Origin: Alpinimonas psychrophila
Lineage (GTDB): Bacteria > Actinomycetota > Actinomycetes > Actinomycetales > Microbacteriaceae
Direction of reading: 5' to 3'
Length of the DNA: 64,000 nt
NCBI RefSeq assembly: GCF_014137865.1
Contig: NZ_JACGWU010000009.1
Location: 1-64,000 of the forward strand
Part shown: one piece after another, positions 20,983-62,985 of the stretch
How the letters are laid out: every line of letters begins with the position of its first letter
Numbering within the stretch: the stretch's first letter is position 1
The notes under the pieces: generated by a model
Database searches by the model: none
What the model was told of the DNA's origin: nothing
What the model saw: only the letters and a program-made list of their open reading frames with translations
Position numbers and translations under genes: made by a program

Positions 20983-22317
20983 CTAACCGATTCGCTCTTT
21001 GCGGCCGAAAATGCCTTGAGGTCTAACTAACAGGAGCAAAATCAAGAGCACGAGCGCAGTCGCGTATTTGAAGTCACCGGGAAGGATCAAGTTGGTGAGC
21101 TCCACGGTCATACCAATGATGAGTGATCCGACGAGGGCGCCGAACGCCGTGCCGAGGCCACCCAGGGTCACGGCAGCAAACAAGAGCAGCAGAAGCTGCA
21201 TGCCGGTCATCCAGTTGATGCCGTTGAGCACCAAGCCGAGCATGACCCCGGAAAGGCCAGCGAGGCCGGCCGCAATCGTCCAGACCAGACGAATGATGCG
21301 GTCTACGTCGATTCCGGAGGCGGCCGCCAGTGCGGGATTATCCGAGACCGCGCGCGTGGCCCGACCGGTTCGAGTTTTGAGAAGAAAAAGGCCCGTCAAC
21401 GTCAATACAACGACCGAGACACCCATCGCGATTAACGATTGCACCGTGAGTGTGACCGGTCCAAAGTTCACGATTTCCGCGTTGTTTTGCAGAATGCGAA
21501 CCGTTGACGCTCCAATGAAGTACTGGAACGTGTACTGCAAAGCGAGCGCCAGACCAATGGTCACAATAATCATTTGGTTCAAGCTAAGCCCCTTCTTGCG
21601 CAGAGGCTTCCAGAGAATCAGGTCTTGAAAGTATCCCGTTGCCGCTGTAATGGCCACGACGATAATCGTCGCAATGTAAATATTCAAGCCCATTACATTG
21701 GCGAAAACGTAGGCGAGGAGGCCGCCGAGGGTCACTTGCTCAGCGTGAGCGAAGTTACTCAAACCGGTCGTGCCGTAAATCAAGGACAGGCCTACGGCGG
21801 CAAGGGCTAGAAGGAGTCCGAGGCGAAGACCCGAAGCAGCCTGTTGGAGGAAACGATCCCACGTGACGGAGGTGGTCGTTGTTGTGGAACTCGTCATTTC
21901 CCCGCTGGCGTCGGTTGTCTGGGTTGAGAAAAGCACTCCGGCACGGGCACCGAGCGTCACGTCGCGAGACTGTGCTGCTTCACCCTTCATGGTGACAGAC
22001 GAGGGAAGGGTCTTCGGGTCGAGCGTGATTGTGTACGTTCCGGCTACGGTAACGGCGGCATTCCAGCTTCCATCGGCCGTCGTTTTGACCGTTACCTTTT
22101 GGCCATTTCCTTCGACCAGAATGTCAATGCCAGCGGCGCCGTCGCGGATTGTTCCAAAGAAGCAAGCGGTAGACGCGTCCGCGACGCAGTCTGTCGCAGC
22201 GACGGCGGCTGATGAGCCCGACAGCACGGCCAGGCTCAGGATCAGAGTTGCCAGAAGGGTACCGAACGTCACTCGCACCCGGCGATGGGAAAAACTTTTT
22301 CGAGCGGTTGGGCTCAC
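20983..22317 (-). CDS. livH: ABC transporter permease LivH with extra secreted N-terminal domain
   Basis: 444 residues; LivH proteins are usually about 290-300. Residues 1-42 form a signal peptide (cleavage near AVAA). Residues about 43-150 are an extracytoplasmic beta-sandwich-like domain resembling carboxypeptidase-regulatory/CNA-B repeats (GTIRDGAAGIDILVEGNGQ, TTADGSWNAAVTVAGTYTITL), followed by a Ser/Thr-rich linker. The LivH permease core follows with IYGTTGLSNFAHAEQVTLGGL and ends in RPQGIFGRKERIG. GTG start with AGGAGGT six bases upstream, so the N-terminal domain is clearly translated. First gene of livHMGF. The domain might dock the binding protein; that is inference. Confidence 0.88.
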   Translation of the reverse strand: MSPTARKSFSHRRVRVTFGTLLATLILSLAVLSGSSAAVAATDCVADASTACFFGTIRDGAAGIDILVEGNGQKVTVKTTADGSWNAAVTVAGTYTITLDPKTLPSSVTMKGEAAQSRDVTLGARAGVLFSTQTTDASGEMTSSTTTTTSVTWDRFLQQAASGLRLGLLLALAAVGLSLIYGTTGLSNFAHAEQVTLGGLLAYVFANVMGLNIYIATIIVVAITAATGYFQDLILWKPLRKKGLSLNQMIIVTIGLALALQYTFQYFIGASTVRILQNNAEIVNFGPVTLTVQSLIAMGVSVVVLTLTGLFLLKTRTGRATRAVSDNPALAAASGIDVDRIIRLVWTIAAGLAGLSGVMLGLVLNGINWMTGMQLLLLLFAAVTLGGLGTAFGALVGSLIIGMTVELTNLILPGDFKYATALVLLILLLLVRPQGIFGRKERIG

Positions 22318-26300: not shown

Positions 26301-28054
26301 CTCCCGTCACCGCGCCCCAAACCCCACTCGCTTCCCGCGGAGATTTTTCGCGACTGAACGCGGCGACGCGGGCGCTGGCGCTGGCCTCCATGCGGTCTCG
26401 GGTGCTCGATGTGCTCGTGATTGGCGGGGGCATCGTCGGCGCGGGATCAGCATTGGATGCCGTGACCCGAGGGCTGGACGTGGGCATTCTAGAAGCTCAA
26501 GATTGGGCGAGCGGAACGTCGAGCCGATCATCCAAGCTCGTGCACGGTGGCATCCGTTATCTGGAACAGCTCGATTTTCCGCTCGTACAAGAAGCGCTCA
26601 CAGAGCGCGGCCTTCTTCTCCAAAGCATCGCCCCGCACCTCGTTCGCCCGATTCGATTTCTCTATCCCCTTCACCACCGTTTGTGGGAGCGGGTCTATAT
26701 TGGCGCGGGAATGATGCTCTATGACCTCCTTTCCTATACCGGAGGCCGGACTCCGGGAGTTCCCCACCACCGTCACCTTTCGAAACGACAGGTGGCGCTC
26801 GCCGCCCCCAGCCTTCGCTCCTCGAACATCATTGGCGGCTTGTCGTACTACGACGGCCAGGTTGATGACGCTCGCTATGTTGTGACGCTCGTGCGCACCG
26901 CGGCATCGTTCGGGGCGCATGCCGCCAACCGCGTTCGGGTCGAGGGATTTCTGACAGAAGGCGAGCGCATCGTCGGGGTGAAGGCCCATGATCTTCTGAC
27001 CGACGAACACTTCGAGATTCGCGCAAAATCTGTCATCAACTCCACCGGGGTATGGACAGGGGAAACTCAGGCCATGGTGGCCGACGGAGGTCGCTTGCGA
27101 GTGCGGGCATCCAAGGGCGTGCACATTCTGATTCCACGGGCCAAGTTTCAATCAATTATGGGATTGCTCCTGCGCACCGAGAAGAGTGTGCTGTTCGTCA
27201 TTCCGTGGGGCAAACACTGGATCATCGGCACCACCGACACGGACTGGCATCTCGATAAGGTGCATCCCTCCGCGACCGCGGCCGACATTGACTACCTCTT
27301 GGAACACGTCAATACCGTGATGGAAACCCCCCTGACGCGCGACGACATCGAGGGCGTGTATGTGGGGCTTCGGCCACTCCTAGCGGGGGAATCTGACGAA
27401 ACCTCGAAGCTTTCGCGCGAACATGTTGTCGCGAATCCGGCACCAGGACTCACTCTGATTGCCGGGGGTAAGTGGACGACGTACCGGGTCATGGCTCAGG
27501 ATGCGGTCGATGCCGCTGTTGACGGTCTCGATGGGCTGATCCCGCCGAGCATCACCGATCGGGTTCCCCTGCTGGGGGCATGCGGATATGTGGCGGAGTT
27601 CAGCCGGCGTGAGCGAACGGCAGCCGAAACTGGTTTGTCTGTCGCCCTGGTCACCCACCTCCTCCATCGGTACGGATCGATGGCACCGGATGTGCTTGCT
27701 CTCATCGCCGAGAATGCATCGTTGGCAACACTTGTACCCGGCACAACTGACTATGTTCAGGCCGAAGTGATCTACGCGGCCACCCATGAGGGTGCTCTGC
27801 ACATTGAGGATGTGTTGGATCGACGAACGCGTCTCGCCATTGAAACTTCAGATCGCGGGGCCGCCGCCGCGCCCGTGGTCGCCAAGCTTTTAGCGCCGGT
27901 CCTCGGCTGGAATGCTACTCGCGCGAAAGCAGAGGTCGCCAACTACCTCGCCTGGGTAGAAGCAGAACTTGCCAGTCAACGTCAAGACGACGACGTGGCG
28001 GCGAATGCCCTCAGCGTTGCCGTCCCACCGATTGGCTTGGCAACGACCTTATGA
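26297..28054 (+). CDS. glpD: Aerobic glycerol-3-phosphate dehydrogenase
   Basis: 585 residues. FAD-dependent oxidation of glycerol-3-phosphate to dihydroxyacetone phosphate at the membrane. FAD-binding DVLVIGGGIVGAGSALDAVTRG, the family signature SRSSKLVHGGIRYLEQLDFPLV, IGTTDTDWH and GGKWTTYRVMAQDAVD, then the C-terminal helical domain. GTG start overlaps the guaB3 stop (GTGA) and its stop overlaps surf1 (ATGA), so guaB-guaB3-glpD-surf1 reads as one unit. Confidence 0.94.
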   Translation: MTPVTAPQTPLASRGDFSRLNAATRALALASMRSRVLDVLVIGGGIVGAGSALDAVTRGLDVGILEAQDWASGTSSRSSKLVHGGIRYLEQLDFPLVQEALTERGLLLQSIAPHLVRPIRFLYPLHHRLWERVYIGAGMMLYDLLSYTGGRTPGVPHHRHLSKRQVALAAPSLRSSNIIGGLSYYDGQVDDARYVVTLVRTAASFGAHAANRVRVEGFLTEGERIVGVKAHDLLTDEHFEIRAKSVINSTGVWTGETQAMVADGGRLRVRASKGVHILIPRAKFQSIMGLLLRTEKSVLFVIPWGKHWIIGTTDTDWHLDKVHPSATAADIDYLLEHVNTVMETPLTRDDIEGVYVGLRPLLAGESDETSKLSREHVVANPAPGLTLIAGGKWTTYRVMAQDAVDAAVDGLDGLIPPSITDRVPLLGACGYVAEFSRRERTAAETGLSVALVTHLLHRYGSMAPDVLALIAENASLATLVPGTTDYVQAEVIYAATHEGALHIEDVLDRRTRLAIETSDRGAAAAPVVAKLLAPVLGWNATRAKAEVANYLAWVEAELASQRQDDDVAANALSVAVPPIGLATTL

Positions 28055-28866
28055 TTCGAATTGCCCGGCAACCTAAGTGGATTTTGCTCCTCCTTTTCGC
28101 CCTCGCGCTGGCAGCAGTGTTTGCCTGGTTGGGTAAGTGGCAGGTGGAGCGCGCGGTGCTCGACTCGCAAGCGGCTTCGTCCCTCACCGAAATCGCGAAA
28201 CCGCTGATCGAGCTCGCCAAGCCGGGTGGCCCGATTCCGATTACGGCCGGGGGGCATCTCACGACGGTCAGCGGTGCGTTTGATCCCGAGGGCTTTGTCG
28301 TCCTCACCGGCCGTCTGAATCAAGGCAAGGCTGGGTATTGGCTTGTAGGCCGTCTTTTGGTGTCAAACTCTGGTGATAACGGTGATAACGGTGACGCGGT
28401 GGCGGCTCGCGGTCCCGCATCCGTATCGTTGCCGGTTGCTTTGGGGTGGGCTCCAACCCAGGATGCGCTGAATGCCGCTCTGGCGCCAGAGAAGGCGGCC
28501 GCTGTCGCCGGTTCCGGATCCACCATCTTGATCAGTGGTCGCCTGATGCCGACCGAGGCGCCGACGGTTCCCAAACCGACGGGCAACCCTTTCGAGGAGT
28601 CAACGCTGTCGGTCGCCTCGTTGGTTAACGTCTGGCCGAACTACTCGGGCACGTCTTTTGGTGCCTATCTCATTGATGATCAGGGGCCCGACGGCTTGAC
28701 GACCATTGATTCGGCGCCGCCAGAGAATTCCGCCACCTTGAACTGGCTGAACATCTTCTATGCCATTGAATGGGTGGTCTTCGCGGGCTTCGCCGTGTAT
28801 TTCTGGTACCGCCTCGTGCGGGATGCCTACGAGCGCGAGGAAGAAGAAAAGACACTTTCTCTGTAG
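28051..28866 (+). CDS. SURF1 family cytochrome oxidase assembly protein
   Basis: 271 residues with the family layout: an N-terminal helix (about 9-28, LLLFALALAAVFAWLGKWQVER), a large extracytoplasmic domain beginning V(S)GAFDPEGFVVLTGRLNQGKAGYW, and a C-terminal helix (NIFYAIEWVVFAGFAVYFWYR). Assists assembly of haem-copper cytochrome c oxidase. Contains a small DNG-repeat loop (28372-28398). The last 40 bp, encoding an acidic EREEEEK tail, are overlapped on the other strand by the aldoxime dehydratase gene. Confidence 0.9.
   Translation: MIRIARQPKWILLLLFALALAAVFAWLGKWQVERAVLDSQAASSLTEIAKPLIELAKPGGPIPITAGGHLTTVSGAFDPEGFVVLTGRLNQGKAGYWLVGRLLVSNSGDNGDNGDAVAARGPASVSLPVALGWAPTQDALNAALAPEKAAAVAGSGSTILISGRLMPTEAPTVPKPTGNPFEESTLSVASLVNVWPNYSGTSFGAYLIDDQGPDGLTTIDSAPPENSATLNWLNIFYAIEWVVFAGFAVYFWYRLVRDAYEREEEEKTLSL
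28372..28398 (+). repeat. 9-bp tandem repeat inside surf1
   Basis: GGTGATAAC twice in tandem plus a third degenerate unit GGTGACGCG, encoding Asp-Asn-Gly repeats in an extracytoplasmic loop. Likely slippage-generated; in-frame. Confidence 0.7.
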
Positions 28867-29906
28867 GGCAACATTCCCGTGGCCTCATGGCAATTCAGAT
28901 ACTCAAAGTATTGCGCCGGGGCTTCCGTCACAAGGACTTCGTGCCACAGTCGGAGTTTGATGGCCCCCTTGAGCTCTTGGGCCATCTCAATAAACCGATT
29001 AAAAATCTTGAGATGACTCGGATGTGATTCGGACCACACCTCCAAATGGCGTAGCGAGACAAAGTGGGCGACCGCGAATTTTCTCTCGAGAGTGTCACCA
29101 GAGTGGGTTGTCTCGGTCATGTGGCGGCAGGAATAGCATCCGCTTTCAACGGGGTTGTCGCGAAGATAGAGCATTCCCTCCACGACGGAGGGAACGAGTT
29201 CTCTGTCATAGATTTCTTTCTCCCTCCCTATGAGACCCTCGTAGTGCTCTCCGGAGCGAATTGTCGCCAGATTTGCCTTTCCCGATATCAAAACCCTGCC
29301 GTGACGCTCCTGCGTTGAGGTACTTCGCGCGGCACTGGCGCTCGATGAGGAAAGCAAGGCATCATTGCCGGAGGCGCGAATTCGATCGCGCATGGAACCC
29401 CAGTAGTTATGTTCTTGAATGGGACTGCTCATTGGCACAGTGCCGCCATTTGCGCCGGCGCACATAGCAGCATCTGAATAGAGTGTCTCAAGCCTCTCGG
29501 CGGGCGTCTGCAGGACTTCTCGAAAATAGCCGGAGGTCTGCGTCAGCCTAGCGGGCGACTCCCAGAACGATTGGTGTTTTGGCCCTGACGACCAGTCGCT
29601 AAATCTCTGGGCGTCGCCGCGCCAATAACCGATGGAAATCCACGTGTAGAACCCGGCGGAATCGACGAACTCGGCATATTCCCGGTAATCCGGCCCAGAA
29701 CTCAGCGCAGAAGTCGCGTTAATCCACTCACGGAATTCTGCTACCCCGATGGAGTCTTTTCCCTCCATGGTTTGGACGCCGTAATAGGCAAAAGTTACAG
29801 GGCCATCAATTTTTGCCGAAAAACCGGGCACCGGCGGAACCCAGTCCGGCCATGGCAAACGCGCGGGAATTGTTCGTCGAGGTCGGCTTCCCTCTTCACG
29901 CAGCAC
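28827..29906 (-). CDS. oxd: Aldoxime dehydratase (haem protein)
   Basis: 359 residues. Dehydrates aldoximes to nitriles with a haem that binds substrate through nitrogen. By motif comparison with the Rhodococcus enzyme OxdRE the key residues are kept: R173 in EHNYWGSMRDRI, S218 in TIRSGE, proximal haem ligand H298 in WSESHPSHLKIF, and H322 in RLWHEV. GTG start at 29906 is chosen because GGAGG lies 6 bases before it and the length fits the family (about 350); this overlaps the nitrilase 3' end by 11 bp. After the conserved NCHEATGMLP the protein runs on through YRESVFSSSSRS, read antisense from surf1. Supplies nitrile to the adjacent nitrilase. Confidence 0.92.
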   Translation of the reverse strand: MLREEGSRPRRTIPARLPWPDWVPPVPGFSAKIDGPVTFAYYGVQTMEGKDSIGVAEFREWINATSALSSGPDYREYAEFVDSAGFYTWISIGYWRGDAQRFSDWSSGPKHQSFWESPARLTQTSGYFREVLQTPAERLETLYSDAAMCAGANGGTVPMSSPIQEHNYWGSMRDRIRASGNDALLSSSSASAARSTSTQERHGRVLISGKANLATIRSGEHYEGLIGREKEIYDRELVPSVVEGMLYLRDNPVESGCYSCRHMTETTHSGDTLERKFAVAHFVSLRHLEVWSESHPSHLKIFNRFIEMAQELKGAIKLRLWHEVLVTEAPAQYFEYLNCHEATGMLPYRESVFSSSSRS

Positions 29907-30906
29907 CGTCGTCCTCCGTGGCGTCGAGGTCAGGAAAGACAATCTCCGTGCCGAAGAGCCCATCGCCAATGACAACGCGTTGAGGCGTGTTGTTGAACAG
30001 GAGCTGGGTGACGTCGGGGCGGCTGTAGTGGCCAGAAGGGTCGGCCGCGTTTTTGGCAAAGTCAATCATGCTGAGGTCTACGTCCGCCGTGACGAAACCT
30101 TCGACGTTGGGGTCTAGCGCAGTCGAGAGCACGGCGGAGTCGGGCCCAAAAATAGTGGCGTATCCGCCGCCGCCGGTGTAAATCGGGGGGATCGAGCCAT
30201 CGGCAAGGGCGAAAGTTTTGACACCCTCATCACTCATGATCTGGGTTGAGGCGAGAACGAAGCAACCGCCTTCGATGGCATACGTTCGCGATGCCCCCAG
30301 ATTGGTCTCATGGCTCAAGCTCGGAACCATATCCAGGATGCCAAAGCACGGCCATCCGGAAATATGAATCTGCTCGTTCTGGGCGTACATTGCAAACTTC
30401 GTGAGCGGTTGAAGATGTTCCCAGCAATTCAAGGCACCAACGCGGCCGAGTTCCGTGGCCACGACTGTGAGGTCGGACCCGTCTCCCTCGCCGAAAAGAG
30501 TGCGTTCGACGTGAGTGGGCTTGAGCTTGCGTCGGTGAAGCAAAATCTGGCCTTCGCGACCAATCATGGTCTGTGCCATGTACAGGGTGCCGTGGGCTTT
30601 CTCGCTGAAACCGATGACGACGTTGATGTGGTTGTCACGGGCGGCCTCTCGGATGGCGCGCATGTGAGGACCGTTTACGGTGAGCGAGTTGGCATGATAG
30701 CGACCGACGAAGGGCATCTGCTCAGGCGCGGGAAGGGTCCAGAGAAAAGCCGGGTATCCAGGGATCCAGGTCTCAGGGAAAGCAATGAGGTCAACACCGG
30801 CTACCGCCGCATCCTTGATGATCGCCAGGGTTTTCTCGACGGTTCCATCGACGTCGAGCCAGACCGGCTCAGCTTGCACAGCAGCGAGACGAATTGTTTT
30901 ACCCAT
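29896..30906 (-). CDS. Nitrilase of the aldoxime-nitrile pathway
   Basis: 336 residues. Carbon-nitrogen hydrolase that converts a nitrile to its carboxylic acid and ammonia. Catalytic triad E45 (FPETWIPGYP), K127 (HRRKLKPTHVERTLFGEGDGS) and C161 (GALNCWEHLQPL), all in true-nitrilase contexts rather than amidase ones. ATG 30906 chosen because of GGAGG five bases upstream; a longer frame upstream has no such site. Co-transcribed with the aldoxime dehydratase by overlap and divergent from an AraC regulator. An arylacetonitrile- or aliphatic-type substrate is possible and cannot be decided from sequence. Confidence 0.93.
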   Translation of the reverse strand: MGKTIRLAAVQAEPVWLDVDGTVEKTLAIIKDAAVAGVDLIAFPETWIPGYPAFLWTLPAPEQMPFVGRYHANSLTVNGPHMRAIREAARDNHINVVIGFSEKAHGTLYMAQTMIGREGQILLHRRKLKPTHVERTLFGEGDGSDLTVVATELGRVGALNCWEHLQPLTKFAMYAQNEQIHISGWPCFGILDMVPSLSHETNLGASRTYAIEGGCFVLASTQIMSDEGVKTFALADGSIPPIYTGGGGYATIFGPDSAVLSTALDPNVEGFVTADVDLSMIDFAKNAADPSGHYSRPDVTQLLFNNTPQRVVIGDGLFGTEIVFPDLDATEDDGAA

Positions 30907-30989
30907 AGAGTCCTCCAGCGTGATTGGGTCACCGCGTCGGTGATAGTTCGAAGCTAGACGCGAGGATGTTTTTATCATCGGCATTTTGT

Positions 30990-31020
30990 GCAATCCTGTG
31001 GCACGCCTGAGGGGGATTGC
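30990..31020. promoter_or_regulatory. Inverted repeat between nitrilase and araC genes
   Basis: GCAATCC-N17-GGATTGC, perfect 7-bp arms, in the 154-bp divergent intergenic region. Arm spacing of about two helical turns suits an AraC-family dimer. Candidate operator for the divergent regulator. Confidence 0.4.
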
Positions 31021-31060
31021 CCATAATAAGAGCAAGGTCAAACGTCGGAAGGAGCGTGGC

Positions 31061-31990
31061 ATGGTGCTCTTTGCGGCGGCGACCGCGGATGAGTGGCAGG
31101 ACTTCGCCAGTGAGAGTTTCGTGCCGCTGGTCTGCCAATCTTTTGATTCTCATTTCTCCGGTTTCATCGACCATGAGCAGTTGAGTCGCCACATTGCCAT
31201 TTCGGAGGTCTCCTCAGAGGCGTGCGTTGTGGATCGGACTCCGCGGCTCGCGGCGATGGCAGATTCTGATGACGTGCATATCTCCATCCAGTTCGGATCG
31301 CGTGGTGCCATTCGCCAGAACGGCCGTGCGGTCGCTGTGGCTCCGGGATCCGTCACCATGTACGAGACGCATCATCCCTATCGCCTCGACTACTCCGCGC
31401 CGGGGCAGCGGCAAATTGTGATTCAGGCCAATAGGCGCTCTCTCGACCTCTCTGATCGGCAGTTGGCCGACATTGCAGCCAGCACTTTCGCCCCCGCTAA
31501 CGCGTCGAAGGCCAGTTTCATGACGTACGCCCGGAGTTTGCTCCTGGCCCCTCGTTCGGGAGACGCCGTTAACGTTAACGGTCGAGCCGAAGTCCTCTCG
31601 GAGCTGGCTTCCGTGATGATGAGGTCTGTGTGGGGCCAACGAGATGTCGTCCCCACGGGGCCCGCAGCATTACTCATCACCCTGGAGACGTACATTCGTG
31701 AAAACATGACGTCGCCGGATTTGTCGCCTGAAAGTGTGGCCGCCCGGTATTTCATTTCGCGGAGAAAGCTTTATGACCTTTTTGACCGGGCGCGGACGAC
31801 CCCGGCTGATTTCATCCGCCGGGAACGTGTTGAGAGAGCCGCGGGACTTCTTCAGACACGATCCGAGACGACATCCATTTCGGATATCGCATTCGGAACA
31901 GGGTTCACCGACACGACAACGTTCTCGCGGGTCTTTCGTCGTTACTTTGGGTGTACTCCGCATGAATGGTCGGCCGATCACAACGCATAA
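31061..31990 (+). CDS. AraC-family regulator, probable control of the aldoxime/nitrile genes
   Basis: 309 residues from ATG 31061, which has AAGGAG seven bases upstream. N-terminal ligand-sensing region of the AraC_binding_2 kind (about 1-190), then two helix-turn-helix motifs: SPESVAARYFISRRKLYDLF and SISDIAFGTGFTDTTTFSRVFRRYFGCTPHEW. Divergent from nitrilase-oxd, the layout known for nitrile-inducible NitR-type activators. Ends only 9 bp before the DUF3817-guaA genes on the same strand. Confidence 0.88.
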   Translation: MVLFAAATADEWQDFASESFVPLVCQSFDSHFSGFIDHEQLSRHIAISEVSSEACVVDRTPRLAAMADSDDVHISIQFGSRGAIRQNGRAVAVAPGSVTMYETHHPYRLDYSAPGQRQIVIQANRRSLDLSDRQLADIAASTFAPANASKASFMTYARSLLLAPRSGDAVNVNGRAEVLSELASVMMRSVWGQRDVVPTGPAALLITLETYIRENMTSPDLSPESVAARYFISRRKLYDLFDRARTTPADFIRRERVERAAGLLQTRSETTSISDIAFGTGFTDTTTFSRVFRRYFGCTPHEWSADHNA

Positions 31991-31999
31991 ACTAGGGGC

Positions 32000-32443
32000 A
32001 TGAGCTTAGAGCCCCGCACCATCGATATCCCCCGCATCCCCAAGGTCCTCAAGCTCTATCAGGTCATGTCATTCGTGACCGGCTCTTTTCTCTTGTTGCT
32101 GGTGGCTGAGGTCATCACCAAGTGGGAGCTTGGCTATGAGCTGGAGATGGGTGGCGCCTACGGGTTCATCGCGTTGGTTGCCCGCGACAGTGTGCAGGCC
32201 ATCAATCTCTCAACCATCATTCTGATCGTGCACGGGTGGCTTTATGTGCTCTACCTCATCGCCTGTTTCCGCCTCTGGTCGACCATGCGCTGGAACCTGC
32301 TCACCTTTGTGGTGCTGGCATCCGGTGGCATCATTCCCGTTTTGTCGTTCTTCTTGGAGAGCATCTTCACCAAGCGCGTTCGCGCCTATCTCGTCACGCG
32401 GGCCTCTTCCGATGCACGTGAAGTAGAAGGAGCGGCCGCATGA
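32000..32443 (+). CDS. DUF3817 integral membrane protein
   Basis: 147 residues with three transmembrane helices (about 24-42, 70-90, 100-120), starting [23 protein letters not shown] and with [22 protein letters not shown], the DUF3817 core. Function unknown; the family lies directly before guaA in many actinobacteria, as here, with an ATGA overlap. Start ATG with AGGGG just upstream. Its native promoter may have been displaced by the nitrile cassette. Confidence 0.88.
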
Positions 32444-33999
32444 GCCAGCCCGTCCTCGTTGTAGATTTTGGTGCCCAGTACGCTCAACTGATTGCCCGTC
32501 GCGTGCGCGAAGCTGGGGTGTACTCCGAAATCGTGGCGCACTCCATTACGGCGGCTGAAGTTAAAGCCAAGAACCCGGTCGGCATTGTGCTCAGCGGTGG
32601 TCCCTCGAGCGTTTACGAGCCTGGTTCGCCCACGCTCGACCCGGCCATTCTCGAACTGGGCATTCCTGTCTTTGGTATTTGCTACGGATTTCAGGTCATG
32701 GCCCAGGCCCTCGGCGGCACGGTCGCCCAGACCGGTGGTCGTGAATATGGTGCTACTCCCATGCGCATCGCGTCCGGGCATCCGCTTGTGGCAGGCCAGC
32801 CCGATGACCAGACCGTGTGGATGAGTCACGGCGATCAGGTGTCGCAGGCCCCCGAGGGTTTCACCGTTGTCGCCAGCACCGAAGCCACTCCCGTCGCGGC
32901 GTTTGCGAACGATGAGCGTCAACTTTATGGCGTGCAATGGCACCCCGAGGTCAAGCACTCTGAGTTCGGTCAGCGCGTTCTGGAGAACTTCTTGCACGAC
33001 TGCGCCAAGATCCCCGCGGACTGGAACAGCGAAAACGTCATCGAGACGCAGGTTGCTCTGATCCGCAAACAGATTGGCACCTCACGGGTCATCTGCGGTC
33101 TTTCCGGTGGCGTTGACTCGGCCGTGGCCGCAGCGCTCGTGCACAAGGCCGTTGGCGATCAACTCGTCTGCATCTTCGTTGACCACGGATTGTTGCGGCA
33201 GGATGAGCGCCGCCAGGTTGAAGAGGATTACGTGCGCATCACGGGCATCCGCTTGGTCACCGTAGATGTTCGGGAGCAGTTCTTGACGGCGCTCGCCGGC
33301 GTCAGCGATCCCGAAACGAAGCGCAAGATCATCGGCCGCGAGTTCATTCGAACCTTCGAGCAGGCCGAGCGCGATCTCGTCGCCGAGGCAGACGCCGATG
33401 GCCAGCCCATCAAATTCTTGGTGCAGGGAACCTTGTACCCCGACGTCGTGGAATCTGGTGGTGGCAGCGGTACCGCCAACATTAAGAGCCACCACAACGT
33501 TGGTGGTCTTCCTGATGACCTGCAGTTTGAGCTCGTTGAGCCCCTGCGAGCGCTGTTCAAGGACGAGGTTCGCGCCATCGGCCGCGAGCTGGGTCTTCCC
33601 CACGAAATCGTGGGCCGCCAGCCCTTCCCCGGCCCCGGCCTCGGAATCCGCATCGTGGGCGACATCACCCAGGAGCGCCTCGACCTTCTGCGGAAAGCCG
33701 ATGCCATCGTGCGATTTGAACTCACGGCCGCTGGTCTTGACGACGAGATTTGGCAGTGCCCCGTTGTGTTGCTGGCGGATGTTCGCTCCGTCGGTGTCAT
33801 GGGCGATGGGCGCACCTACGGTCACCCCATTGTTCTGCGCCCCGTATCCAGCGAAGACGCCATGACGGCGGACTGGACGCGCCTGCCCTACGACGTGCTG
33901 GCGAAGATCTCGAACCGCATCACGAACGAAGTTGCCGGAGTGAACCGTGTCGTGCTCGATGTCACGAGCAAGCCGCCCGGAACGATTGAGTGGGAATAG
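32440..33999 (+). CDS. guaA: GMP synthase (glutamine-hydrolysing)
   Basis: 519 residues. Amidates XMP to GMP. Class I glutamine amidotransferase domain with nucleophile C81 in [10 protein letters not shown] and [10 protein letters not shown], followed by the ATP-pyrophosphatase domain with [18 protein letters not shown] and the C-terminal dimerisation domain ([22 protein letters not shown]). Translationally coupled to DUF3817. Works after guaB in the same window. Confidence 0.98.
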
Positions 34000-60854: not shown

Positions 60855-60952
60855 GATGGAAGGAGCTTAGGACAAGATGACGACCTTCTCGCTGTCAGAT
60901 TTCCTGGTCTCATGACGGGGCAAATGAACATGAGCGACCGTTGGGAGAGAAT

Positions 60953-61936
60953 GTGTCGAGTCATCGGATAAAGGTTTTGGATACCCGAACGGTGCCGGTG
61001 GAGCAACGAGTGACGAAGTGGGAAAATGCTGTTGCCAATTTTCTCGTGCCGTTGGAGATCCAATCCTCCGACATGACCGTGACGGGTCGCATGACGCGCG
61101 TGAGCGTCGACAACGTCAGCATCTGTCATTTGTCCGCAAGCGCGCACTTCGGTGTGCGCAGCGAAGAACTTGCGGCCGGCTGTGGCTCCGAAAACTACAA
61201 GATTGCCATTGGCACGAAGGGGGTGGTTGCCCTGCAACAGTTTGGCAGGAAAGTAGTGCTTCGTCCCGGTGAATGCGCTATCTACGATACTGCCGAACCA
61301 TATTCTGTGGGCAGCGATGTCCCCTTTGGAGTCGTTGTGGCGTTGATACCCAAAAGCTCTCTTCGAGTGCGGCCGACGGAGATTGCTCGAGTTGCGGCTC
61401 AGGTTTTATCAGGTCAGGATCGGGACGGAATGCGCCGCACATTGTTGCGGTGTGTGGGTGGTGGTCAGTCTTCAATATTGGGCGAGGAGTTCTTCTCAAG
61501 CGTTACGTCTCTTGTTCGTGAAACACCTGCATTCCGTCTTGGGGATCACGTCATCGACGCCGACCTACTTCGGCGCAGCAGAGAGATTATCGAGGGTGCA
61601 CTGCAGTTAGAGGGGCTCGGGCCTGATTACGTGGCAGCACTTTTGGGTGTCTCTAGGCGATACCTGTATAACATTTTCACTCCTGAGTACGGCCCCATCG
61701 CAACATATATACGCGCAAAAAGGCTTGAGCGAGCTCGGACTTTTCTGGCGAGCGCGAAAGAAAAGGACACCCCTATCGTCGAAGTTGCCTTCGAATCAGG
61801 ATTCTCCGATCCCGCACATTTTTCTCGGCTATTCAAGGGTGTGTTCGGACTAACACCATCGGAGTTTCGGACACTTTGTAATCCCGTATCTCAAGGTGAA
61901 TCAGCACGTGGCAGAGTCATCGGCGACCGAGACTAG
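60953..61936 (+). CDS. AraC-family regulator next to nitrilase 2
   Basis: 327 residues from GTG 60953, with GGGAG five bases upstream; TTG 60941 is possible. N-terminal AraC_binding_2-type sensing domain (about 10-200), C-terminal helix-turn-helix pair: LGPDYVAALLGVSRRYLYNIF and PIVEVAFESGFSDPAHFSRLFKGVFGLTPSEFR. Converges on nitrilase 2, the stops overlapping at CTAG. Probably an activator responding to a nitrile or acid; this is inferred from the pairing, which mirrors the first locus. Confidence 0.87.
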   Translation: MSSHRIKVLDTRTVPVEQRVTKWENAVANFLVPLEIQSSDMTVTGRMTRVSVDNVSICHLSASAHFGVRSEELAAGCGSENYKIAIGTKGVVALQQFGRKVVLRPGECAIYDTAEPYSVGSDVPFGVVVALIPKSSLRVRPTEIARVAAQVLSGQDRDGMRRTLLRCVGGGQSSILGEEFFSSVTSLVRETPAFRLGDHVIDADLLRRSREIIEGALQLEGLGPDYVAALLGVSRRYLYNIFTPEYGPIATYIRAKRLERARTFLASAKEKDTPIVEVAFESGFSDPAHFSRLFKGVFGLTPSEFRTLCNPVSQGESARGRVIGDRD

Positions 61937-62985
61937 TTGTTCAAAGCGCTGAGGACAGACGACCGCTCCTCGACACCAGAGATTTCGACACTGTCCACGG
62001 CTGCAGGGTGAGGCATCTGGTCCACGGCTGCAATGTGTTGGGCCGTCAGTGGCACTTGCGGTGTGCGGTTTATGCCGAATGAGAATACGTCGGGACGAGA
62101 ATAGTGACCTGCACCGTCGGCGAAAAATTTTGCAAAGGCGATAATCCCCAAGTCAAGATCTGCGTACAAAATGGCATCATCGTCACGGTGAGGTTCCGAA
62201 AGCCACTTACCGTCGGGACCCATGAAGCCCGAAAGCCCCCCGCCCAAGGAGGGAGCGTCCGGCCCCTTGGGAATATTCAGGCGTTCAATGATTTCCTCAC
62301 TGACTCGACCCTGGACCATGACGACATAGGTTTGGGCGCTGATGGCATGTGCACTTGCAAGAGTCGTGGAGTAGTGATCGAAGTTCCCTGCATTGGGATC
62401 AGCGTGGGTGGCGCTGATCGCGGGCCATGAGGCAATGTGGATTTGCTCTCCGAGCGCGGAGAGGGCATACCTGTTGAGGTCCATGCTGTGTTCAAAGCAA
62501 ATTAAGCCTCCGACTTTTGCAAATCCCATGTCAACGACAAAGACGTCTCTTCCGTCGCCTCGACCCCAAATAGTTCTTTCTGCATTGGTCGGATGCAGTT
62601 TGCGGTGCCGTGCAACGAGTTCGCCGGTGGGGGAGAAGTACGCCTGCGTGTTATAAAGAGTTCCGCCTTCTCTTTCGTCCACGCCGAGCACGACCCAGAC
62701 TCCTGCCTCACGGGCTGCCTCGCCAATCAGGCGTGACTCGTTGCTGGGAAGCTCAATCGAATTGTGAAAGAGTTCAGCGAAAAGGGGAGCTGAATACTTG
62801 GCCGTGTGTGACCAAATCCAATGCGGGTAGCCGGGAAGATATGTCTCGGGGAATGCGACCAGTTTCGCGCCGTTTCGACCGGCTTCACTGATGAGCTCGC
62901 ATGTTTTCTGGACACCGGCCTTGAGATCAAGGAAGGGTGCGGCACCATGGACGGCCGCCACTTTGACAACGGATGAAGTATTCAT
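61933..62985 (-). CDS. Nitrilase 2
   Basis: 350 residues. Catalytic triad E47 (FPETYLPGYP), K129 (RHRKLHPTNAERTIWGRGDG) and C163 (GGLICFEHSMDL), i.e. a true nitrilase. Only broadly similar to nitrilase 1 and with different loops near the active site (AISAQTYVVMVQGRVSEEII), so a different substrate range is likely. No aldoxime dehydratase is adjacent. ATG at 62985 without a clear ribosome-binding site. Converges on an AraC gene. Confidence 0.92.
   Translation of the reverse strand: MNTSSVVKVAAVHGAAPFLDLKAGVQKTCELISEAGRNGAKLVAFPETYLPGYPHWIWSHTAKYSAPLFAELFHNSIELPSNESRLIGEAAREAGVWVVLGVDEREGGTLYNTQAYFSPTGELVARHRKLHPTNAERTIWGRGDGRDVFVVDMGFAKVGGLICFEHSMDLNRYALSALGEQIHIASWPAISATHADPNAGNFDHYSTTLASAHAISAQTYVVMVQGRVSEEIIERLNIPKGPDAPSLGGGLSGFMGPDGKWLSEPHRDDDAILYADLDLGIIAFAKFFADGAGHYSRPDVFSFGINRTPQVPLTAQHIAAVDQMPHPAAVDSVEISGVEERSSVLSALNN

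Follow-up and report, generated by a model that had tools for sequence, protein, structure and literature searches.

An AraC-associated aldoxime dehydratase-nitrilase locus between surf1 and DUF3817-guaA in Alpinimonas psychrophila: probable vertical inheritance and repeated trimming of a longer ancestral locus

Clusters in which the aldoxime dehydratase gene (oxd) is preceded by those of NitR, an AraC-type regulator, and of a probable nitrilase are described for Bacillus sp. OxB-1 and Bradyrhizobium sp. LTSPM299 and are predicted to convert aldoximes into nitriles and these into acids (PMC8955678). An aldoxime-nitrile pathway is also reported there for Rhodococcus and Pseudomonas chlororaphis B23, which differ in employing a nitrile hydratase and an amidase instead of a nitrilase. 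We analysed a related locus in the actinobacterium Alpinimonas psychrophila, on a 64,000-bp stretch of contig NZ_JACGWU010000009.1 (positions 1 to 64,000, hereafter the window). Here an AraC-family gene (araC1), a nitrilase gene (nit1) and oxd lie between surf1 and the pair formed by DUF3817 and guaA. This three-gene core is of the kind known from Bacillus OxB-1 and Bradyrhizobium; new are a link to a nitroalkane oxidase, a 14-bp candidate operator, a leaderless-type promoter box, the history of the site and a longer form of the locus in related genera. The explanation that we favour, with a probability of about 0.78, is that an AraC-regulated locus of the nitrilase type entered once into a common ancestor of three genera and was then inherited vertically and trimmed.

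The closest solved structures to the window Oxd were the aldoxime dehydratases 3w08 (211 bits) and 3a15 (210 bits). It departs from the OxB-1/LTSPM299 systems in being closer to these two than to the solved phenylacetaldoxime dehydratase 7f2y (151 bits), and they differ further from the window's relatives, where the transcript runs on into two additional genes. All eight mapped OxdA positions (E143, H169, R178, R218, S219, L289, H299 and H320) were identical in the window Oxd; we take S219, R178 and H320 to be catalytic and His299 to be the haem ligand. For Nit1, the five best solved matches were nitrilases (299–320 bits, with 8uxu at the top with 320 bits), and further matches included a cyanide hydratase (241 bits) and the nitrilase 3wuy (204 bits). 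The hallmarks of nitrilases are a Glu-Lys-Cys triad and a CWEH motif; the segments FPE, LKPTHVER and NCWEH were conserved in the alignments of Nit1 with 8uxu and 22sf. Since Oxd and Nit1 both scored below strict NCBIfam equivalog cut-offs (Oxd 268 bits against 600 for OxdA, NF050090, so that we consider it a homolog and do not file it as OxdA; Nit1 247 bits against 502.6 for the Nit6803 family, TIGR04048), we assigned no substrate class to either. The best NCBIfam model for AraC1 was FeaR (NF007243), with 124 bits, under the 199-bit cut-off. At the level of Pfam families, the identities of the encoded proteins were unambiguous.

The arrangement of these genes was compact. The oxd and nit1 genes, adjacent on one strand, overlap by 11 bp (29896–29906), araC1 is head to head with nit1 across a 154-bp gap, oxd overlaps surf1 by 40 bp in antisense, the araC1 stop codon lies 9 bp from the DUF3817 ATG, and DUF3817 overlaps guaA by 4 bp. 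The initial annotation had read the first of these distances and the flanking ones correctly from the sequence, and its proposal of an aldoxime dehydratase plus nitrilase pathway agrees well with the profiles, solved homologs and mapped residues. The GTG start of oxd was deduced from the overlap with nit1 (the frame is open to 30065), whereas nit1 starts with ATG preceded, by eye, by GGAGGA 4 nt upstream. The three genes are not chance open reading frames, because they have orthologs with a low ratio of nonsynonymous to synonymous substitution rates (dN/dS) in six relatives. With nit and oxd adjacent on the same strand and a divergent AraC gene, the locus is very likely, judging from homology and gene order, an aldoxime-nitrile locus of the nitrilase type.

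We then considered its distribution in a sample of 398 genomes of the family. A search with the PF13816 profile at its own cut-off retrieved Oxd in nine of them: the window genome (G000), two of a related genus (g47), four of another (g13), and G219 and G125; ten further genomes had only weak partial matches. DUF3817 was matched in 390 of the 398, and seven of the nine Oxd-positive genomes carry oxd at the DUF3817-guaA site. In the six relatives (G047, G171, G094, G205, G250 and G288) the araC/nit1/oxd block adjoins DUF3817-guaA in the same order as in the window, and in the first three of them surf1 was reached on the far side. The oxd gene is next to nit1 in 7/7 cassette genomes, the G288 copy being itself cut by a contig end, and the window Nit1 is 76–78% identical to those of the six relatives. 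Among 34 DUF3817 loci that we examined (the 30 best matches plus G205, G250, G125 and G219, from the 390 matching genomes), seven contain the block, in G117 a remnant lies in a gap of 419 bp, and in the other 26 surf1 immediately precedes DUF3817, at −11 to 35 bp (the G219 value relies on an estimated start). The latter include G001, the only other sampled genome of the window's genus (g1), with a gap of 13 bp. At the scale of g1, g47 and g13, the 11 sampled genomes thus comprise seven with the block, G117 with a scar, G001, whose site is empty, and two in which only fragments of the downstream genes occur (G013 and G155, 82 and 88% complete, where neither Oxd nor DUF3817 was found). Because Oxd is so rare family-wide (9/398) and yet occurs seven times at this one site, a single entry into the common ancestor of the three genera appears most likely. 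The cassette is not present throughout the family, the case in which the initial annotation would have called it ancestral, but it occupies the same site in three genera and seven genomes belonging to one guaA clade.

Beyond the family, a search of 396 genomes of the order with the single Oxd sequence gave a single weak match (E = 3e-4) outside the window genome, a result that we do not take as absence. At E ≤ 1e-70, Nit1 was found in the window genome and seven others (47–54% identical) of the 396 in a phylum sample; of the nine loci in those seven, three (two of G990 and one of G1041) have oxd beside nit, with 29–32% identity.

The relatives revealed a longer form of the locus. In G047, G171 and G094, genes for a 414-aa flavoprotein and for an MBL-fold protein of 253–254 aa come, in this order, between oxd and surf1; G205, G250 and G288 show the same gene order as far as their contigs reach. 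Over its whole length, the G171 flavoprotein matched the nitroalkane oxidase (NAO) structure 2c0u, which we take to be from Fusarium, with 307 bits, against 139 bits for the best acyl-CoA dehydrogenase. Its D384 and R391 correspond to D402 and R409 of nitroalkane oxidase, presumably the Asp base and its Arg partner, and S276, for which we likewise assume an active role, is replaced by Thr, which may be conservative. Because of this replacement we call the gene NAO-like. This likeness concerns the relatives' gene only, as neither an NAO ortholog (the best match being 29% identical) nor any MBL match was found in the window genome. The MBL protein weakly resembles several metallohydrolases, such as 3rpc (E = 7e-7) and SaxA 6brm (E = 7e-5); these matches are too weak to identify it as a SaxA isothiocyanate hydrolase, and only the MBL fold is assigned. 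A second nitrilase gene, nit2, adjoins the MBL gene in three g13 genomes (G094, G250 and G288). In the phylum sample, a NAO-like gene was detected at E ≤ 1e-60 in one of 326 genomes (at most five candidates were scored per genome), and the short locus around it had no nit, oxd or MBL match. A single literature search found no paper naming both nitroalkane oxidase and aldoxime dehydratase. In G047, a short repeated sequence (with a frame reading LSLSKP...; L034:11990–12292) intervenes between surf1 and the MBL gene; no such repeat was seen next to surf1 in G171 or G094.

Compared with this longer form, the window copy looks cut down. Its oxd reads ...TGMLP and then YRESVFSSSSRS followed by a stop, and these last codons are antisense to the end of surf1; this junction would be most simply explained by a deletion reaching from the oxd tail to slightly beyond the surf1 stop codon. 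In G117, the surf1-DUF3817 gap holds the antisense C-terminus of the MBL protein (residues 156–254 at 75%, or 161–254 at 78%) fused to the C-terminus of araC (residues 258–305), the two alignments overlapping by ~30–45 bp at the joint, and nothing else was recognised in the gap. This scar implies that both ends of the locus were once present there. In G001 we found no remnant at the site, no Oxd and no MBL, and one weak nitrilase-type match only; we infer its loss of the cassette from the tree, not from a scar. Several stages of trimming would thus still be visible, namely the full locus, a partial copy with a borrowed stop codon, a two-ended scar and an empty site. One might then ask if the window copy is itself decaying, with a truncated oxd left unused after the loss of the NAO-like and MBL genes and only nit1, together with the second nitrilase, still of importance. 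The replacement of the oxd C-terminus by surf1 antisense codons, the divergence of oxd and araC1, and the loss of all or most of the locus in other clade genomes point in that direction. We nevertheless deem this unlikely, as the invariant Oxd columns stop before the tail, no mapped catalytic residue is missing, the reading frames remain open and the candidate operator is retained.

The phylogenetic trees were compatible with the vertical inheritance of the cassette. In a guaA tree (33 rows, G117 being absent since it has no guaA within its locus), g1, g47 and g13 were monophyletic with support 100/100, and a g47+g13 group was weakly supported (83/73). The seven cassette genomes grouped together in the trees of nit1 and araC1, as did six of them in a rebuilt oxd tree, from which G288 was left out; a first oxd tree that included very distant rows gave 79/97. 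As in the guaA order, the window copy branched outside g47+g13 in the rebuilt nit1 (92/95) and oxd (80/86) trees and in the first araC1 tree (100/97); the inner order of the cassette gene trees is moderately supported. For the rebuilt oxd tree, whose outgroup did not fall on one side of a branch, we dropped Aquimarina, two G219 rows, G125, Pseudonocardia and the SZAS proteobacterium in addition to G288, and added four plasmid rows; for that of nit1, Aquimarina, a G219 row and three nit2 rows were dropped and six rows were added. Base composition does not support a recent transfer: the G+C content of the cassette was 57.3%, within the spread of 122 overlapping window stretches (58.3 ± 1.6%, rank 34), with values of 55.4% for oxd, 58.6% for nit1, and 58.4% for araC1, against 57.0% for the neighbouring DUF3817. 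In pairs among the relatives, the cassette genes evolve under purifying selection, with dN/dS of 0.016–0.042 for nit1, 0.028–0.069 for araC1 and 0.068–0.102 for oxd; the values were 0.057–0.062 for the NAO-like gene, 0.110–0.176 for the MBL gene and 0.024–0.052 for guaA. Pairs with the window genome are little informative, the synonymous distances (dS) of oxd, nit1 and araC1 being ≥1.75 or saturated. Taken with the shared site, these data make vertical inheritance of the cassette highly probable.

As for a possible source, the Pseudomonas loci L024–L026 and L028–L030, presumably of the P. syringae group, share the arrangement of a divergent AraC gene, then nit, then oxd, but their nit and oxd products are only 50–51% and 39–41% identical to those of the window; no NAO or MBL homolog was detected at E = 1e-3 in the nine loci L024–L032. 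On plasmids of two Pseudomonadota, Pantoea vagans FBS135 and Acinetobacter schindleri SGAir0122, an AraC-type regulator is likewise divergent from nit-oxd, but there follows a gene annotated as 'transporter', insertion-sequence or recombinase genes lie nearby, and Oxd is 36% and 31% identical, respectively. A Streptomyces plasmid has the order oxd-nit, and the type with oxd, nitrile hydratase and amidase also occurs on one Agrobacterium and one Pantoea plasmid. The closest nit that we found outside the clade (63.6%) is on a plasmid of Citricoccus sp. SGAir0253, with an AraC 37% identical and a candidate operator with two mismatches, and it was sister to the clade, on a long branch, in the rebuilt nit1 tree. 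In contrast with the window's relatives, it has no oxd beside nit, and the downstream MBL-fold gene was rejected as an ortholog of theirs because it belongs to a different family. This Citricoccus AraC-nitrilase pair (L150:6028–11964) is flanked by a recombinase gene and, on the opposite side, by an IS256 gene. The rarity of Oxd in the family and the occurrence of nit-oxd pairs on plasmids support a foreign origin of the cassette at some point, and this part of the horizontal acquisition proposed initially holds.

A recent gain, by which the window lineage alone would have received the cassette between surf1 and DUF3817 after its split from G001, is quite another matter. It could be argued from the intact site in G001, a genome of the same genus with a guaA 98.6% identical, from the absence of Oxd from most of the family sample, and from the mobile context of related pairs, including the plasmid-borne sister nit1 near recombinase and transposase genes. 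Yet the same site is occupied in two other genera, the cassette trees are compatible with descent, the G+C content falls within the window spread and the junction in the window belongs to a longer cluster cut down. We hence regard a recent gain as very improbable: the two comparisons that the initial annotation had proposed as checks lead elsewhere, the surf1-guaA spacing making the empty site of G001 a loss by parsimony, given the cassette in g47 and g13, and the Oxd and nitrilase phylogenies being compatible with vertical descent. The history of the site changes accordingly from a cassette newly wedged in to one inherited and being trimmed.

Several observations weigh against a single ancestral entry followed by vertical inheritance. 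The surf1 side is readable in just three of the six relatives, the contigs of G205, G250 and G288 ending first, and the six assemblies are 77–98% complete, with four under 90%. Sequence conservation is low for oxd (48–57% identity between the window and the relatives) and araC1 (42–45%), and the dN/dS of araC1 between the window and G047 reaches 0.32. The first nit1 and oxd trees do not settle how the window copy, g47 and g13 branch relative to one another, and both oxd trees came with long-branch warnings. The G+C content of oxd is also lower than that of the guaB-like, G3P dehydrogenase, surf1 and guaA genes (60–62%). Finally, loss in G001, a genome without remnant and 87% complete, rests on parsimony.

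The araC-nit1 gaps are poorly conserved apart from a 14-bp block, GCACAAAWYGCCGA, of which an exact match occurs once per genome in 7/7 cassette genomes, always in this gap. The block was first chosen by eye on the same gaps; when all 14-mers of the window gap were tested, it was again the best, with 39/42 matching positions in G171, G047 and G094 against ≤32 in 60 dinucleotide shuffles, and with 50/56 against ≤40 when the Citricoccus gap was added. Among the block-free genomes, G117, G013 and G155 have no exact match and G001 has one (C155:745), which we judged to be due to chance as it lies inside an oxidoreductase frame. Looser matches did not exceed the chance level (within one mismatch, two in the window genome, the other at C4:32643, versus three for a reversed-pattern control; within two mismatches, two in the window where 2.44 were expected), and consequently the case for the operator rests on the exact matches at this one place. 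A regulon of the same operator elsewhere in the window genome received no support.

At the other end of the locus, a TANNNT box lies 6–7 nt before the DUF3817 ATG in 33 of the 34 loci and, in the remaining one, before an ATG further upstream (by eye). Boxes of this type near the start codon mark leaderless promoters in actinobacteria, which suggests that DUF3817 and guaA (presumably the GMP synthase gene, named from sequence and gene order) may form a leaderless unit with its own promoter across the family. Such a box would keep their expression independent of whatever lies upstream, and suggests that an insertion beside an essential gene may be harmless if it occurs just upstream of a leaderless promoter box. 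The initial annotation had spoken of a core operon interrupted by the cassette; the flanking genes are those it gave, but the term is loose, as DUF3817-guaA seems to possess its own promoter box.

The conversion of aldoximes into nitriles and of these into acids and ammonia is established chemistry for these enzyme families. In the window, AraC1 would sense an aldoxime, a nitrile or the product and would activate nit1-oxd from the 154-bp gap via GCACAAAWYGCCGA; Oxd would dehydrate the aldoxime to the nitrile on ferrous haem, and Nit1 would hydrolyse the nitrile to the carboxylic acid and ammonia, the gain being nitrogen, detoxification or both. The locus would have entered once, in the ancestor of the three genera, at a point immediately ahead of the DUF3817-guaA promoter box, with nit1-oxd followed by the NAO-like flavoenzyme and the MBL-fold hydrolase. 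During its vertical inheritance, the window lineage would have lost the last two genes, G117 would have kept the outer ends, and G001 would have been left with an empty site.

The nature of the substrate is less clear-cut. Aldoximes are nitrogenous compounds that plants produce. A role of the aldoxime pathway in relation to plant defence has been put forward (PMC8955678), and Nicotiana benthamiana expressing maize CYP79A61 emits phenylacetaldoxime, benzyl cyanide and 2-phenylnitroethane together (PMC4446944). A cluster with Oxd, a nitrilase and a NAO-like enzyme would fit such a plant mix of aldoxime, nitrile and nitro compounds, a consideration that concerns the relatives more than the window. 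We tentatively propose that the locus of the sister genera could be an undescribed cluster in which a nitroalkane oxidase and an MBL-fold hydrolase join the aldoxime-nitrile pathway under one AraC regulator, stripping nitrogen from an aldoxime, a nitrile and a nitroalkane derived from one amino acid and emitted jointly by plants, and that the window would hold a version reduced to aldoxime and nitrile. If the nitroalkane oxidase link is functional, this cluster would handle the three forms together; we know of no earlier one that does. A plant-related role seems to us possible, if somewhat short of probable, and the use of plant or algal aldoximes or the production of an auxin-like acid by the window cell, as first suggested, may be envisaged. 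A competing idea is that the enzymes are real but act on self-made or microbial aldoximes, or on nitriles generally, with Oxd in a minor role. The stronger constraint on nit1 than on oxd among the relatives, the Citricoccus AraC-nit pair without an adjacent oxd and a second AraC-nitrilase pair 30 kb away in the window would agree with it. The presence of oxd beside nit1 in every cassette genome and, in the relatives, the neighbouring NAO-like gene, expected to match the CYP79A61 mix (PMC4446944), speak against it, and we hold this alternative to be possible, though less likely than not. Coordinates are given in Table 1.

Table 1. Features of the surf1-guaA region in the window.
Feature	Position	Strand	Details
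surf1, left flank	28051..28866	plus	SURF1 PF02104, 55 bits; G001 copy 76% identical
Putative deletion junction: oxd end (YRESVFSSSSRS + stop) antisense to surf1 3' end	28827..28866		sequence compared with relatives
oxd, haem aldoxime dehydratase	28827..29906	minus	359 aa from GTG at 29906; PF13816, 272 bits
nit1, nitrilase, first gene of the divergent transcript	29896..30906	minus	CN_hydrolase, 175 bits (Pfam)
Candidate AraC operator GCACAAAATGCCGA	30978..30991	minus	71 bp upstream of nit1
araC1, AraC-family regulator, divergent from nit1	31061..31990	plus	AraC_binding_2 + HTH_18 (68 bits)
TAAACT box, probable leaderless −10 element	31988..31993	plus	6 nt before DUF3817 ATG; overlaps araC1 stop codon
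DUF3817, right flank	32000..32443	plus	PF12823, 62 bits; ATG at 32000
guaA, core gene, species marker	32440..33999	plus	98.6% identical in G001; ~86–90% in other clade genomes

The second AraC-nitrilase pair of the window (60941–62985) consists of araC2 on the plus strand and nit2 on the minus strand, tail to tail. This nit2 is 76% identical to the nitrilase within the G094 surf1-DUF3817 locus, beside which no araC2 was seen; because its G094 relative sits inside that locus, nit2 has changed place. Elsewhere in the family, G219 and G125 have distant Oxd loci at other places in their genomes, with surf1 close before DUF3817: of these three loci, L041 and L042 (G219) and L043 (G125), one has Oxd beside a nitrilase, another has a permease, a dehydrogenase and a nitrilase in the vicinity of Oxd, and one belongs to a genome with no nitrilase match. 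The window also encodes, at 20983–22317, an ABC permease of the branched-chain amino-acid type (named by eye) with an extra N-terminal part before the membrane domain.

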